Assembly: GCA_021808485.1 (NCBI GenBank)
Contig: JAKBBN010000009.1
Span: forward strand, 1-55,719
DNA from: Planctomycetota bacterium
GTDB lineage: Bacteria > Planctomycetota > Phycisphaerae > WQYP01
Reading direction: 5' to 3'
Length of the DNA stretch: 55,719 nt
The notes beneath the pieces are model-generated. The model did no database searches. It was not told where the DNA came from and saw nothing but the letters and a program-made list of their open reading frames with translations. Shown piece by piece: positions 381 through 7,277 of the stretch (position 1 is its first letter; each line of letters begins with the position of its first letter). The position numbers were made by a program, and so were the translations under genes.

Positions 381-1397
381 CTAATGAACCGGGCGCACCG
401 CCCGCAAAACAAACAAATCCGGAACGGCCCAGCGGCTTTCCGGCGAACGACTTTTTCGGGACGGCAGCGTATGCCGGCGGATATCCTTGAATCCGGCAAT
501 CGTCAGCTGCTGTGCCAACTCATCCGGGGCAAAACCCATCCACCGGTGGCCCATTTTTTCCCGGAATATTTCGACCGTATGCGGCAGAAGATCAACGATC
601 AGCGCTACGCCGCCCGGTTTAAGTGCACGCTGGATTTGCGTAAGCGCCGCCGGGATCCGCACCACATGATGCAGCACCAGAATGGTCAGCGCCGCGTCCA
701 GCGTCTGATCCGCAATCGGCAGATCCTCCAGGCTTCCGGACAGCAATTCCACGTTATCAAGCTGCGCCATTCGAATACGATTGCGCGCGGCTTTCACCAT
801 ATGCGGGGAAGGCTCCACGGCGATTATTTTCTTCACATGCGGGGCGATCAGTCCGAATGCAGTCCCCGTCCCGGCCCCCAAGTCGCCGACGGTCCACTGC
901 GGATTCAGCAGCGCCAGCATGGCTTCCATATGGAAGGTGTCGCCAAACCACTGGCTGCGAATGGCGTCCCATTGCGGCGCGGCGGCGCCGAAAAAATCAA
1001 CCCTTAAATTCTGCCGGTCCTGCAAAGCCTGTTTCAGCCGGCTGGCATCCGTGGTGAGTTGTTCATCCGTCAGAAGTTGATGCTTCACCATCACCCGCAA
1101 TTGGCGGGAAATCGCGTTTTCCGCGGCATTGCTGATACGGTAAAGCATGGATGTTCCGTCGCGGCGCCCCTCCGTTATCCCGGCATCCACCAGGGCCTTC
1201 ATGTGCCGGCTGACCGTGGACTGCGGCAACTTCATGGCTACCGCCAGTTCACCGATGCGCAGGCCGTCAGTTCCGGTTCGCTCCAGTAGACGAAGCATGC
1301 GCAGGCGCATCGGATCCGCCAGCGTCCGCAGCAATTTCACCCAGCGCCTCAACGGCATCGGCGTATTGCCGGTATGTGTTGTCAACAATCCGTTCAT
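381..1397 (-). CDS. ArsR-family HTH fused to SAM-dependent methyltransferase domain (SahR-like regulator)
   Basis: 338 residues. Residues about 20-95 form an ArsR-type winged helix: LADPMRLRMLRLLE, then the recognition helix in LPQSTVSRHMKALVDAG. Residues about 165-310 are a class I methyltransferase fold with motif I VGDLGAGTGTAFG near residue 170, an acidic residue in IAVEPSPHMV and a motif IV-like stretch ending ILVLHHV. The classical ArsR metal-binding cysteines are absent, so it should not be an arsenic sensor. Fusions of this shape next to ahcY resemble SahR, a repressor that responds to S-adenosylhomocysteine and controls methionine-cycle genes (family knowledge). The methyltransferase domain would then be a ligand sensor; this is inference. 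The ATG at 1397 has no clear ribosome binding site and sits close to a possible -10, so the message may be leaderless. It is divergent from manA. Confidence 0.85.
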   Translation of the reverse strand: MNGLLTTHTGNTPMPLRRWVKLLRTLADPMRLRMLRLLERTGTDGLRIGELAVAMKLPQSTVSRHMKALVDAGITEGRRDGTSMLYRISNAAENAISRQLRVMVKHQLLTDEQLTTDASRLKQALQDRQNLRVDFFGAAAPQWDAIRSQWFGDTFHMEAMLALLNPQWTVGDLGAGTGTAFGLIAPHVKKIIAVEPSPHMVKAARNRIRMAQLDNVELLSGSLEDLPIADQTLDAALTILVLHHVVRIPAALTQIQRALKPGGVALIVDLLPHTVEIFREKMGHRWMGFAPDELAQQLTIAGFKDIRRHTLPSRKSRSPESRWAVPDLFVLRAVRPVH

Positions 1398-1521
1398 CCG
1401 GATATAATGATAGTAACTGTGGGCGACGGCTGCAAGCCCTTCGCCCGCGATCCGGCTCTACCGCAATTCCCCGGGCGGCACCGCCGGTTTTCGGCAGGCC
1501 GGCGAAACAGGCGGTGACATT

Positions 1522-2544
1522 GTGTATCCATTGAAGTTTTCTCCCGTGCTTCAGAAACGCATCTGGGGCGGACGGCAAATTGAACGCGTTCTCGGCCGCG
1601 GTATTCCACAGGCGCTGGCCGGGCAACCTGTAGGCGAATCCTGGGAAATTGCCGACTTGCCGCCCGGCTCCGTCAAGGCGGATTCCGCCGGCGCGGCGAC
1701 AGACGGATCTCTTAGTTCCGTCATTGCCGGCGGCGCCTTGAACGGACAGACTCTGCATCAGGCGATCTCCCGCCATGGCAAGGAGATTCTGGGACCCGCC
1801 GGCGAAGAGTGGTTTCCACTGCTGATTAAATATCTGGATGCCAATGACGACCTGTCCGTGCAGGTACATCCAAACGCCGCCTACGCCGCCTCGCACCCCG
1901 GCGCGCATCTTAAAAGCGAGGCATGGTATGTGATTGCCGCTCGCCCCGGGGCAAAAATTTACAAAGGGCTGAAGCCCGGCACGGACCGCCGAAGTTTTGT
2001 CGCCGCTGTGGAATCCGGCCGGGTTGACCAGGTTCTTCAGGCCATACCCGTTCGCCCCGGGGATTGCCATTATCTGGAATCCGGAACGGTGCACGCACTG
2101 GGTGCGGGCGTTTTGGCCGCGGAAGTGCAAACACCTTCCGATACAACCTTCCGCGTATTCGACTGGAATCGCCTTGGGCCGGACGGCAAACCGCGGCAAT
2201 TGCACCTGGATGCGGCGATGGAAGTTATTTCATTTGATACCTTGCCGGAAAGCCCGGTGGAACGCCGGGAAACGTCGAACGGAAACATCCATGTGACGGA
2301 ACTTGTTCGCTGCCCGTATTTCCATTTAAGCCGGCGAACCGTCAACACCGGCGATGAACCTCTGCCCAGCGGTCCGGCCGCGGTCTGGATTCTGCTTTCC
2401 GGACAGGGCGTGATTGAATGCGACGGCCGGGCCGGTGTGGCCGTTGCCGCAGGTGATACTGTGCTTATTCCGGCTAAAATGGAGAATACGGTGCTGCGTG
2501 TCGTCAGCCCGTGTTCCTGGCTTCAGGCGGATCTGCCGTTGTAA
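1522..2544 (+). CDS. manA: Mannose-6-phosphate isomerase, class I short type
   Basis: Interconverts fructose 6-phosphate and mannose 6-phosphate, feeding GDP-mannose and mannose-containing surface glycans, or allowing mannose use. 340 residues, close to the short Bacillus-type enzymes. Zinc-site motifs are visible: SVQVHPN near residue 113, the glutamate in KSEAWYVI near 130, and SGTVHALGAG near 188. FRVFDWNRLGPDGKPRQLH near 215 is typical of the family, and the C-terminus is a second cupin-like half. The start is GTG at 1522, with a weak AGGCGG upstream. Divergent from the ArsR-methyltransferase gene with about 124 bases between them, so the promoters may overlap. It stands alone, followed by an 80-base gap to rluB. 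Confidence 0.93.
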   Translation: MYPLKFSPVLQKRIWGGRQIERVLGRGIPQALAGQPVGESWEIADLPPGSVKADSAGAATDGSLSSVIAGGALNGQTLHQAISRHGKEILGPAGEEWFPLLIKYLDANDDLSVQVHPNAAYAASHPGAHLKSEAWYVIAARPGAKIYKGLKPGTDRRSFVAAVESGRVDQVLQAIPVRPGDCHYLESGTVHALGAGVLAAEVQTPSDTTFRVFDWNRLGPDGKPRQLHLDAAMEVISFDTLPESPVERRETSNGNIHVTELVRCPYFHLSRRTVNTGDEPLPSGPAAVWILLSGQGVIECDGRAGVAVAAGDTVLIPAKMENTVLRVVSPCSWLQADLPL

Positions 2545-2624: not shown

Positions 2625-3560
2625 ATGATGACAACACAAAAGGTAAGACTGCAAAAATTCATGGCGGATTGCGGTGTGGCGTCCCGCCGGCGGTGCGAAG
2701 AACTGATCGTGCAGGGACAGGTTCGGGTCAACGGGCTGGTTGTCAGCCGATTGCCCATCCTGATTGACCCCCGGCAAGATGAAGTGATGGTGGGTGATGA
2801 AATCGTCGAATCGCTGGCCCCGGAAGAACCTGTTTACTTTGTGCTGCATAAGCCCAAGGGCGTGCTGGTGACTTCGCAAGACCCGTCGGAACGCAAAACC
2901 GTGCACGAATTGCTGAAATCCGTACCGCAACGGGTATTCCCGGTCGGCCGGCTGGATATGGATGCCCGCGGGGTTCTACTGATGACCAATGACGGTGAAC
3001 TGGCCAACCGCCTTACCCACCCGCGTTACGGAATTGAAAAGACCTATATCGTCACGGTGGACGGCCGGATTCATCCGCAGGCATTGGAAGAAATTAAAAA
3101 GGGAATGTGGCTTGGTCCGGCACATGCCGGCGGCAAAGCGGAAAAAACGCACGGCCTTAAGGCAAAGGTTCTATCCGCAGACCGGCGCCAATCCATTCTG
3201 GAAATCCGCCTGAATGAATCAAAAAACCGGGAAATCCGCCGCGTTCTGGCGCGTGTCGGCTTCCGTGTCCGGGACCTGTTTCGCGCGGCTCTGGCCGAAA
3301 AGATCACCGTCAAGGGCCTTGAACCCGGGGCCTTTCGCCCCCTGACACCCCAGGAATTGCAATGGCTCAAAAAAATAAGTTCGCCGGAACATCTTCAGCA
3401 GCGAAAGGAAGCAACACAGCAATGGTATGAACAAAAGGAAATGGACAAGGAGCGAAAACGCCTGGAATCGCTAAAACGCAGCACTCAAGCCTCCACCGGA
3501 CATCGGCCGGCCGGGTCCGGAGCATCGCGGCGAGGCGCCAAACGACCGGGGCGATCATAA
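2625..3560 (+). CDS. rluB: 23S rRNA pseudouridine synthase, RluB/RsuA family
   Basis: Converts a specific uridine of ribosomal RNA to pseudouridine; the RluB branch acts on the 23S peptidyl-transferase region. 311 residues. An S4 RNA-binding domain occupies about residues 6-55 (LQKFMADCGVASRRRCEELI), and the catalytic domain follows with the hallmark GRLDMDARGVLLMTNDGEL near residue 107; the aspartate of RLD is the catalytic one. ESKNREIRRVLARVGF is the family's C-terminal motif. Beyond residue 255 the protein ends in a charged, low-complexity basic tail, common in RluB proteins and likely to bind RNA. ATG at 2625 and 2628 are alternative starts with no strong ribosome binding site. Assignment to RluB rather than RsuA or RluE is likely from length and tail, not proven. 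Confidence 0.9.
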   Translation: MMTTQKVRLQKFMADCGVASRRRCEELIVQGQVRVNGLVVSRLPILIDPRQDEVMVGDEIVESLAPEEPVYFVLHKPKGVLVTSQDPSERKTVHELLKSVPQRVFPVGRLDMDARGVLLMTNDGELANRLTHPRYGIEKTYIVTVDGRIHPQALEEIKKGMWLGPAHAGGKAEKTHGLKAKVLSADRRQSILEIRLNESKNREIRRVLARVGFRVRDLFRAALAEKITVKGLEPGAFRPLTPQELQWLKKISSPEHLQQRKEATQQWYEQKEMDKERKRLESLKRSTQASTGHRPAGSGASRRGAKRPGRS

Positions 3561-3579: not shown

Positions 3580-3704
3580 GAATGAATCCGCGGCCGGCGC
3601 CCGGGAAACGCTGCAATAAACAGTCGCATCATCAGGCGACGGGCGGACCAATGTCCGCGAGGGCCGCCAGGCAAATGCCGAGGGAATCAACAGGAATAGA
3701 ACGC

Positions 3705-6700
3705 ATGACAACGCCACTTAAGCACAGCACGAAGCAACCGGAAAAACCCGCGGCCGCCGACAGCGAAATCAGCGCGATTTCATCGCCAAGCGCCCATCCA
3801 TTTCTGGAGGTGCTTAAATCGCGCGTGATGGTGTTTGACGGCGGACTGGGCACGCAGATTTTTGCAGCCAATCTTCAGCTTTCCGATTTTTGGAATCTGG
3901 AGAACTGCCCGGAAGTACTGGTGCTTTCGCGTCCGGACGTTATTGAGGAAATACATAATTCCTATTTCGCCGCCGGAGCCGATACGGTTGAAACCGATAC
4001 ATTTGGGGCAAGCAAAATAACACTTGGTGAATTTGGACTGCAGGATCGCTGCCGGGAAATCAATTGCGCCGCCGCCCGGCTCGCCCGGCGCGCCGCCGAC
4101 GCACACAAAACAACTGAAAAACCGCGTTTTGTCGCAGGCTCGATCGGGCCGGGCACCAAGTCAATTACGCTGGGCAATACCACCTTCGCATTGATGCATG
4201 ACTCCTACTGCCAGCAGGTGCGCGGTCTACTGGATGGCGGCGTGGATGCCATACTCATTGAAACATGCTTTGATCTTCTGCAGGCCAAAACCGCGGTCAT
4301 TGCCGCACTTGACGCCATGGACGAACTGGGCAACCGCGTGCCCATCATGGTGCAGGTGACCATGGAACAGGTCGGGACCATGCTCCTGGGAACGGACATG
4401 GAAGCCGTTATCACCACACTCCAGGCATTGCCGGTGGATATTATCGGCATGAATTGCGCGACCGGACCGGAATTAATGCGGCCGCACGTGGAAACGCTCA
4501 GCCGCCTGTGCAATCGGTATATCTCCATTCAGCCCAACGCCGGTTTGCCCGTGCTGCACGAAGGCAAAACGCATTTTCCGCTGGGAGCGGCGGAACTTGC
4601 CGTTGCCCATCGGAATTTTGTGGAGGAATTCGGCGTTAATATTGTCGGCGGCTGCTGCGGCACCACTCCGGATCATATCCGCGCCGCCGCCCAGGCGGTG
4701 CGCGGCCTTTCGCCGAAATTCCGCGAGGCCTTTCAAAAACAACCGGACGGCAAAGCCGCGGCGGTCTCCTCGCTTTATTCCTCCGTGCCCGCCCGGCAGG
4801 ACAACTCGATTCTTATTATCGGCGAGCGCACCAATACCAATGGCTCCAAAAAATTCAAGGAATGCCTGCTCGCCCAGGACTGGGACACTCTCGCCGCCAT
4901 GGGTCGCGAAGCGGTCAAGGAAGGCTCGCACGTCGTGGACGTGTGCGTCGATTATGTGGGCCGTGACGGCGTACCGGATATGACCGAAGTCATCCGGCGC
5001 TTTGCCAAGGAAGTCACCGCGCCGCTGATGATTGATTCCACACAGCTTGATGTGTTGGAGGCCGGTCTTCAGGCTGCTCCGGGCAAGTGCATTGTCAATT
5101 CGATAAATCTTGAGGATGGTGAGGAAAAGCTGGCAAAAATGTGCCGCCTGCTGCGGCGATACGGCGCCGCCGTCGTTGCCGGCACCATTGACGAGGATAA
5201 AATCGAAGCGATGGGCAAAACGGCCGATCGCAAGCTTGCCATCGCCCGGCGTTTGCATGATCTTCTGGTGCATAAATACGGCATACCCGCTTCGGACATT
5301 TATTTTGACCCGCTTATTTTTCCCATTGTGACCGGACAGGAGGAAGTCCGCCGCCTTGCGCTGGAAACAATTGAAGGCATCCGGCGCATCAGTGCGGATT
5401 TTCCGGATTGCCATACCACGCTGGGACTTTCCAATGTCTCGTTCGGCCTGAAGCCCTATGCACGGCTGGTGATCAACAGCGCTTTTTTTAATGAATGCGT
5501 CAAGGCCGGGCTTACCTCGGCCATCGTTCATTCCAGCAAAATCCTGCCGCAAAATAAAATTGAGGCGGAGCATTACCAATGGGCGCTGGACCTTATTTAT
5601 GACCGCTCCACCGACTCTTACAATCCGCTGGGATTGTTGAGCACGCTTGGCGCGCCGGTGCAATCGGTGGAGAAACTCGCTTCACTGAGCCTCGAAGAAA
5701 GATTGCAACGGCATATCATTGACGGCGACAAGCAAAACCTCGCCGAAGACCTTACTCAAGCCATGGCCAAATATGCCCCGCTGGACATTATCAACGATCA
5801 CCTGCTGGCCGGCATGAAAATAGTCGGTGAACTGTTCGGCAGCGGCCGCATGCAGCTTCCGTTTGTTCTCCAAAGCGCGGAAGTAATGAAATCCGCCGTG
5901 GCGTTCCTGCAGCCGCACATGCCCAAAGCCGCCGGTCAAAGCCGCGGCCGCATGGTGCTGGCCACGGTAAAAGGCGACGTGCACGACATCGGCAAAAATC
6001 TCGTGGACATTATTGTCTCCAACAATGGCTATACCGTTCATAATCTGGGCATCAAACAGCCCATTTCCAATGTGATTGAGGCCGCAAAGAAGTATGATGC
6101 CCAGGCCATCGGACTTTCCGGCCTGCTTGTGAAATCCACCCTTGTAATGCGGGATGATTTGATGGAACTTAACCGCCTTGGCATCACCACACCCGTCATC
6201 CTTGGCGGCGCCGCCCTGACCCGCAAATATGTCGAAAAGGATCTGCGCGACATATACAAAGGCCCCCTCTTCTTCGGCAGGGATGCTTTTGAAGGGCTGA
6301 AAATCATGGATCATGTGTCCACGGATAAAACCGTTGAATTACTGGTTCAAACCGGCGACGCCCCGGAAAAGGCCGCCGCCAGATGCCGCGGCGGTACGGT
6401 CACGGCCATATCTCCGCCGGCCGCATCGACCGGCCCGGCAACCACCGATTATGCCGCCAATTCCATCTCCCGCGACAACGCCATTCCGCGGCTGCCGTTT
6501 TACGGCGCCCGCGTGGTAAAGGATATTCCAATCGACGCGGTCTTTCCGTATATAGATGAAGTGGCCCTGTTCCGCGGCCAATGGCAATTCAAAAGCGGCG
6601 TCATGCCGCGGGATGAATTCCGCAAATGGACCGAAGATCATGTCCGCCCGATATATGATCGCATCAAGCAAAAGTGCCGGGATATGAATCTGCTTAATCC

Positions 6701-7277
6701 GGCGGTGGTATATGGCTACTTTTGGGCGCAAAGCGATAAAAACGATCTGATTATTTACGCCGAAGATAAAAAGACCCAGATACTTCGTTTTCATTTTCCA
6801 CGGCAGACCGCCCGGAAGCGATGGTGTCTGTCCGATTTTTTCCGCAGTGTGGATTCCGGGCAGATGGATATTGCCACCCTGCAATGCGTGACCGCCGGTC
6901 TGCAAATTGCGCCCTACGAAAAACAGTTGTTTGATTCCGGTGATTTTACCGAATACCTGTATATTCACGGTATGGGCGTGCAGATCGCCGAAGCGCTGGC
7001 GGAAATGTGGCACAAGCGCGTACGGCAGGAGTTGGGAATTGCCGACAAAGACGGCCAATCCATGCGCGATATTTTTGCCTGCCGCTATCAGGGCTGCCGA
7101 TACAGTTTCGGCTATCCCGCATGCCCGGACCTGCAGGATGAGGAAAAGCTGTTCGCCCTGCTGGATCCTTCGCGAATCGGATGTTCGCTTTCGGAAAACT
7201 GGATGATTCAGCCGGAACAGTCCACCTCCGCATTGATTGTGCATCATCCGGAAGCGGTCTATTTTAATGTAGATTAA
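3705..7277 (+). CDS. metH: Cobalamin-dependent methionine synthase
   Basis: Transfers a methyl group from methyltetrahydrofolate to homocysteine through bound cobalamin, making methionine. All modules are present. Residue numbers count from the preferred start. Homocysteine domain with zinc cysteines in GMNCATGP (about 250) and GGCCGTTPDH (about 316). Pterin-binding domain beginning IIGERTNTNGSKKFKE. Cobalamin cap and Rossmann domain with the B12-ligand histidine in GDVHDIGKN (about 758). C-terminal activation domain, containing SFGYPACPD (about 1133), for reductive reactivation with SAM. About 1190 residues, normal for the family. An in-frame ATG at 3582 would add 41 residues, but these do not look like family sequence; ATG 3705 follows AGGAA at good spacing and is preferred. 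No B12 riboswitch is apparent upstream. It forms a methyl-cycle group with ahcY and the SahR-like gene. Confidence 0.95.
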   Translation: MTTPLKHSTKQPEKPAAADSEISAISSPSAHPFLEVLKSRVMVFDGGLGTQIFAANLQLSDFWNLENCPEVLVLSRPDVIEEIHNSYFAAGADTVETDTFGASKITLGEFGLQDRCREINCAAARLARRAADAHKTTEKPRFVAGSIGPGTKSITLGNTTFALMHDSYCQQVRGLLDGGVDAILIETCFDLLQAKTAVIAALDAMDELGNRVPIMVQVTMEQVGTMLLGTDMEAVITTLQALPVDIIGMNCATGPELMRPHVETLSRLCNRYISIQPNAGLPVLHEGKTHFPLGAAELAVAHRNFVEEFGVNIVGGCCGTTPDHIRAAAQAVRGLSPKFREAFQKQPDGKAAAVSSLYSSVPARQDNSILIIGERTNTNGSKKFKECLLAQDWDTLAAMGREAVKEGSHVVDVCVDYVGRDGVPDMTEVIRRFAKEVTAPLMIDSTQLDVLEAGLQAAPGKCIVNSINLEDGEEKLAKMCRLLRRYGAAVVAGTIDEDKIEAMGKTADRKLAIARRLHDLLVHKYGIPASDIYFDPLIFPIVTGQEEVRRLALETIEGIRRISADFPDCHTTLGLSNVSFGLKPYARLVINSAFFNECVKAGLTSAIVHSSKILPQNKIEAEHYQWALDLIYDRSTDSYNPLGLLSTLGAPVQSVEKLASLSLEERLQRHIIDGDKQNLAEDLTQAMAKYAPLDIINDHLLAGMKIVGELFGSGRMQLPFVLQSAEVMKSAVAFLQPHMPKAAGQSRGRMVLATVKGDVHDIGKNLVDIIVSNNGYTVHNLGIKQPISNVIEAAKKYDAQAIGLSGLLVKSTLVMRDDLMELNRLGITTPVILGGAALTRKYVEKDLRDIYKGPLFFGRDAFEGLKIMDHVSTDKTVELLVQTGDAPEKAAARCRGGTVTAISPPAASTGPATTDYAANSISRDNAIPRLPFYGARVVKDIPIDAVFPYIDEVALFRGQWQFKSGVMPRDEFRKWTEDHVRPIYDRIKQKCRDMNLLNPAVVYGYFWAQSDKNDLIIYAEDKKTQILRFHFPRQTARKRWCLSDFFRSVDSGQMDIATLQCVTAGLQIAPYEKQLFDSGDFTEYLYIHGMGVQIAEALAEMWHKRVRQELGIADKDGQSMRDIFACRYQGCRYSFGYPACPDLQDEEKLFALLDPSRIGCSLSENWMIQPEQSTSALIVHHPEAVYFNVD

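Follow-up and report, generated by a model that had tools for sequence, protein, structure and literature searches.

The gene at 381 to 1397 of contig JAKBBN010000009.1 from a Planctomycetota bacterium raises the question of what a protein that joins an ArsR-type winged helix to a methyltransferase fold does next to ahcY, the gene for S-adenosylhomocysteine (SAH) hydrolase. The window, the whole stretch of DNA that was analyzed, comprises 55,719 nucleotides; the features discussed are collected in Table 1. An initial annotation had described an ArsR winged helix without metal-site cysteines fused to a methyltransferase fold, and profile searches bore this out (HTH_metalloreg, the NCBIfam model, 72 bits; Methyltransf_11, 2.8e-20), with matches of residues 21 to 91 to Pfam HTH_5 and HTH_20 as well. 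The 338-aa protein contains no cysteine at all. ArsR/SmtB metal sensors are recognized by winged-helix cysteines that form a metal site; such a site is therefore ruled out here, as is an arsenite site of the ArsM type.

Residues of the SAM-binding pocket were strongly conserved among 64 homologues, both in motif I (D/E172 in 64/64, G174 in 62/64, G176 in 64/64, and G178 in 59/64) and at the ribose-binding acidic residue E195 (D or E in 64/64). Two further residues just C-terminal of the core methyltransferase domain, H273 (98%) and G288 (100%), are conserved family-wide and may be candidates for coupling ligand to DNA binding. In the AlphaFold model (mean pLDDT of 92.8, poor at the first residues only), the winged helix is followed by a long helical linker and then by a Rossmann-type domain. 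A sequence search found no solved chain covering both domains, and the top fold matches of the model, RdmB, Rv2258c, and DnrK, matched it domain by domain rather than as a whole (TM of about 0.41, rmsd above 20 A).

Table 1. Positions of the regulator gene, its domains, its control region, and neighboring genes in the window
Feature	Position	Strand	Details
ahcY (S-adenosylhomocysteine hydrolase), truncated by the contig end to its N-terminal 108 aa	3..326	(-)	TIGR00936, 6.7e-41
sahR-type regulator (ArsR winged helix + class I SAM-methyltransferase fold), predicted	381..1397	(-)	338 aa from ATG 1397; 325 aa from ATG 1358
Methyltransferase-type SAM/SAH-binding domain core, aa 172-267	597..884	(-)	Methyltransf_11, 2.8e-20; Rossmann-type strands and helices in model
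SAM-binding motif I DLGAGTG, aa 172-178	864..884	(-)	Conserved among 64 homologues
Cysteine-free ArsR/SmtB winged helix-turn-helix domain, aa 21-91	1125..1337	(-)	NF033788, 72.4 bits (cut-off 55)
Divergent promoter TTGTCA-18-TATAAT toward manA-rsu-metH	1379..1408	(+)	Overlaps operator; 11/12 consensus matches
Predicted operator ATCATTATATCCGGATGAACGGAT	1388..1411	(-)	ATC-N10-GAT dyads at 1396-1411 and 1388-1403, overlapping with an 8-bp offset
-10-like TATCAT of sahR-ahcY promoter	1407..1412	(-)	Overlaps operator; conserved in family alignment
-35-like TTGCAG of sahR-ahcY promoter	1430..1435	(-)	17-nt spacer to TATCAT; read from sequence
manA-like phosphomannose isomerase, first of divergent cluster	1522..2544	(+)	TIGR00218, 116.9 bits
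RsuA/RluB-type pseudouridine synthase	2625..3560	(+)	TIGR00093
metH, cobalamin-dependent methionine synthase	3582..7277	(+)	TIGR02082, 1303.5 bits

The gene context is that of the SAM cycle. The regulator gene does lie directly upstream of ahcY, as the initial annotation had stated, with a gap of 54 nt on the same strand, and the two genes form a putative operon. metH, noted before as lying about 2.3 kb away on the other strand, was found there (2.2 kb between the two starts), not as an isolated neighbor but in third place in the divergent cluster manA-rsu-metH. The intervening manA-like gene and pseudouridine synthase gene are retained between operator and metH family-wide and have no obvious link to the SAM cycle.

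We assessed how constant this linkage is, first in the family of the source genome, where the order ahcY-sahR / manA-rsu-metH was kept wherever contigs suffice, with few exceptions, and then in a phylum sample of 392 Planctomycetota, 122 of which had a regulator match at E<=1e-20. From this sample, 60 homologue loci were read out to about 7 kb per side. The initial annotation had named a missing link to ahcY or metH among homologues as evidence against its reading; in the survey, one or the other gene was downstream in 56/60 loci. ahcY was downstream on the same strand in 38 loci (within 250 nt in 35 of these) and metH in 18 (all within 260 nt), and the 4 loci with neither gene in the stretch read included 3 from a single family, f19. 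Similar fusions occur outside the phylum: at seven alphaproteobacterial plasmid loci the fusion precedes metF, with metH next in several, and in Leptospira interrogans (locus L084, 5938-6954) the same fusion lies directly upstream of ahcY in the run fusion-ahcY-(4Fe-4S protein)-metH, and the start of the fusion gene carries a perfect ATCAAGATATCTTGAT palindrome. The Leptospira locus differs in having metH on the same strand, and its protein is only about 29% identical. In a tree of planctomycete, Leptospira, and alphaproteobacterial met-linked fusions, which holds neither Desulfovibrio SahR nor an outgroup, most ahcY-linked, the metH-linked, and the alphaproteobacterial metF-linked proteins formed separate groups, some deep forks being weakly supported. 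The partner labels required 4 changes on this tree, compared to a mean of 23.5 for shuffles.

Upstream of the regulator gene, alignment of 21 distinct family loci revealed a near-invariant block, TATCATTNTATCCGGATgaACGGATT, in otherwise unalignable DNA, and this block holds two overlapping ATC-N10-GAT dyads. When dyads were counted without a preset motif, ATC-N10-GAT came first in the metH-linked group and at or near the top in the ahcY-linked groups. It was present at -90 to +50 of the start in 47/60 loci but in only 61/1198 (5%) of the gene starts taken from these loci as controls, and other dyad spacings were present in 0 to 12 of the 60 loci; since the loci are related, the binomial p value of 4e-49 for this enrichment makes them look more independent than they are. 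The core corresponds to the "ATC-10 nt-GAT" consensus printed for SahR/SamR (Leyn et al. 2014, PMC4239095). In place of the planctomycete dyad, the metF-linked alphaproteobacterial genes carry a 20-bp palindrome of type ACATAAAGATATCTTTATGT, the sequence of which is consistent with the reported 20-bp SahR palindrome, said to vary slightly between alpha- and deltaproteobacteria.

The predicted operator overlaps both divergent promoters (Table 1), so that one bound repressor could shut both arms. No conserved block was found directly before metH in the source family, and metH there is probably reached through the divergent promoter. The annotated ATG of the regulator (1395-1397) falls inside the operator, the next one is at 1356-1358, and relatives disagree, the first ATG being lost in four of them (L033-L036) and two others (L007 and L009) having no other ATG before the domain; the true start is thus uncertain. 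Since the annotated start codon is also near the predicted transcription start, some members may have nearly leaderless mRNA.

The dyad was also found at unlinked genes of the same cycle. In the source genome, metF lies on another contig, and its promoter carries the same double dyad, TATCATCAGTTAATCCGGATTAAAGGATGAATG, which was detected by a looser dyad search and not by the full-operator search; at up to 3 mismatches, there were no other copies of the full family operator in this genome. Within the family, the dyad precedes metF in 18/25 orthologues, and three more are near misses; the 7/25 without an exact dyad include those of two regulator-holding genomes (G010 and G016), and the metF loci of two genomes without a regulator match (G007 and G015) have no dyad. 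In other families of the class, where metH does not adjoin the regulator gene, the dyad was present before metH in 17/18 regulator-positive and 0/10 regulator-negative genomes (Fisher p=8e-7) and before metF in 7/18 and 0/10, respectively (p=0.03), and in family f19 it was present at ahcY, linked or unlinked, in 8/9 genomes compared to 0/16 ahcY loci of regulator-negative genomes (p=8e-6), p values that are not strictly independent because the groups compared are different taxonomic families. One of the seven metF sites, that of G420, lies 296 nt upstream within another reading frame and is probably due to chance. The dyad carriers of family f19 include the unlinked ahcY genes of G389, G412, and G420, and the exceptions to synteny therefore become support.

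Two further ideas were considered and rejected. The metK locus of the source genome (L154) has no dyad, and metK was dropped as a target; neither the window nor 40 metH/metF loci contained an Rfam riboswitch, and riboswitch control was dropped likewise.

Given the linkage and an operator of the SahR consensus at its own gene and at unlinked metF, metH, and ahcY, the sequence evidence argues that the open reading frame 1397..381 (-) very probably encodes a repressor of the SahR type that controls transcription of SAM (methionine) cycle genes, and the SahR-like reading of the initial annotation stands. We infer dimerization, and repression rather than activation. Presumably in dimeric form, the protein would use its ArsR winged helix to bind the tandem ATC-N10-GAT operator at 1388-1411 and thereby cover the -10 elements of both the sahR-ahcY promoter and the divergent manA-rsu-metH promoter; in trans, it would also occupy the matching site upstream of metF. 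The sensor would be the methyltransferase fold: accumulated SAH would occupy the SAM pocket, the SAH-bound regulator would leave the DNA, and AhcY, MetH, and MetF would be made, with the effect that SAH is removed and methionine is regenerated. SAH is the likely inducing ligand by analogy with Desulfovibrio SahR, for which PMC8877191 gives SAH as the signal at second hand, and because ahcY is so constant a partner, although the sequence by itself cannot separate SAH from SAM.

The protein shares with SahR its ArsR family, its predicted targets (ahcY, metH, metF, and itself), and the ATC-N10-GAT operator core; the core regulon of sahR, ahcY, metH, and metF was recovered in silico by operators. 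Novichkov et al. in 2014 reportedly found the SahR effector domain to be related to SAM methylases. The same relationship appears here, in homologues as well as in the Methyltransf_11 match, motif I, and the acidic residue of the window protein. The initial annotation had valued a methyltransferase fold used as a sensor as something new; that claim falls, as this is already the architecture of SahR itself and also that of the metF- and ahcY-linked alphaproteobacterial and Leptospira homologues. Unlike SahR of Proteobacteria, the regulator described here belongs to Planctomycetota and has a staggered double dyad, ATCATTNTATCCGGATGAACGGAT; manA lies between it and metH, and many planctomycetes outside the class have two gene-dedicated paralogues. 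The lack of an operator at metK is a further difference, metK being a variable member of the SahR regulon and not essential to the family. The novel elements are the phylum, the paralogue pairs at ahcY and metH, the regulon reconstructed for planctomycetes, and a divergent promoter that carries a staggered double operator. A literature search on SahR in Planctomycetota listed papers that seemed to match the author name Sahr, none of them evidently about such a regulator. SahR-type control of the SAM cycle, known from Proteobacteria, would reach Planctomycetota and also Leptospira, which shows the same signature; the predicted operator and regulon are directly testable, and the annotation of homologues deposited as "metalloregulator ArsR/SmtB" would be corrected.

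A repressor that responds to SAM, with SAM as corepressor so that plentiful SAM shuts methionine synthesis and SAH is not the signal, is unlikely. Such a regulator would resemble SamR of Xanthomonadales, a SahR-like ArsR regulator that shares the ATC-10nt-GAT consensus and the linkage to metH (Leyn et al. 2014); the fold accommodates SAM and SAH alike, the operator consensus is common to SahR and SamR (PMC4239095), and metF and metH are synthesis genes. The most constant partner in Planctomycetota, however, is ahcY, which encodes the SAH-removing enzyme. The argument of Leyn et al. for SAM as the SamR ligand was precisely that the SamR regulon lacks ahcY and other SAM-cycle genes (PMC4239095), metK being the sole exception; here, by contrast, ahcY is the main target and metK has no dyad.

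Less probable still, and very unlikely in our estimate, is a bifunctional protein whose methyltransferase domain still catalyzes methyl transfer, the activity claimed for ArsR-M from Brevundimonas sp. M20. That protein is also a fusion of ArsR and methyltransferase in a methionine-gene context: it heads an arsRM-metF-HMT-metH operon, binds its own promoter, and has been reported to methylate arsenite (PMC10190100), and the window protein has the same architecture with motif I intact. ArsR-M, however, is claimed as an arsenite methyltransferase with Cys134, and the cysteine-based As(III) site beside the SAM site that marks such a protein is absent from the 338 cysteine-free residues of the window protein. 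Since the sole common Cys column in the family, moreover, lies inside motif I, thiol-based arsenite handling is not a conserved function; the partner genes identified, too, are SAM-cycle genes throughout. By its architecture and its metF-metH operon, ArsR-M is itself probably an alphaproteobacterial SahR, in which case the description of this probable relative as an arsenite methyltransferase would be corrected as well. A plain methyltransferase with a winged helix solely for dimerization, as in the O-methyltransferases RdmB, DnrK, and Rv2258c, is barely credible despite these being the best structural matches, as the matches are to single domains, the helix-turn-helix scores above the cut-off of a DNA-binding ArsR model, and the matching operator, at the gene's own promoter and at unlinked ones, is confined to genomes that encode the protein.

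The SahR-type repressor appears in duplicate in about 35 genomes of the 392-genome sample. One copy was at ahcY and the other at metH in 8/8 two-copy genomes read (L110-L149, outside the source class). In the metH-linked copies, the WD motif that precedes the fold has been lost and SAM motif I is altered; the operators diverge as well, ATCA-N8-TGAT being common at the ahcY copies but not at the metH copies. We tentatively raise the possibility, itself on the doubtful side, that the ahcY- and metH-dedicated copies sense different ligands (e.g., SAH and SAM, respectively); if so, a single SAH switch would have been split into two-input control of the SAM cycle. The pairs offer a natural experiment on the conversion of a methyltransferase pocket into a sensor and on shifts in its specificity.

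AhcY itself also varies within the class. Over the first 108 residues, AhcY of the source family (L007-L037) is about 36 to 48% identical to that of other families of the class (L040-L047), a divergence that suggests replacement by a different AhcY type in the source family.
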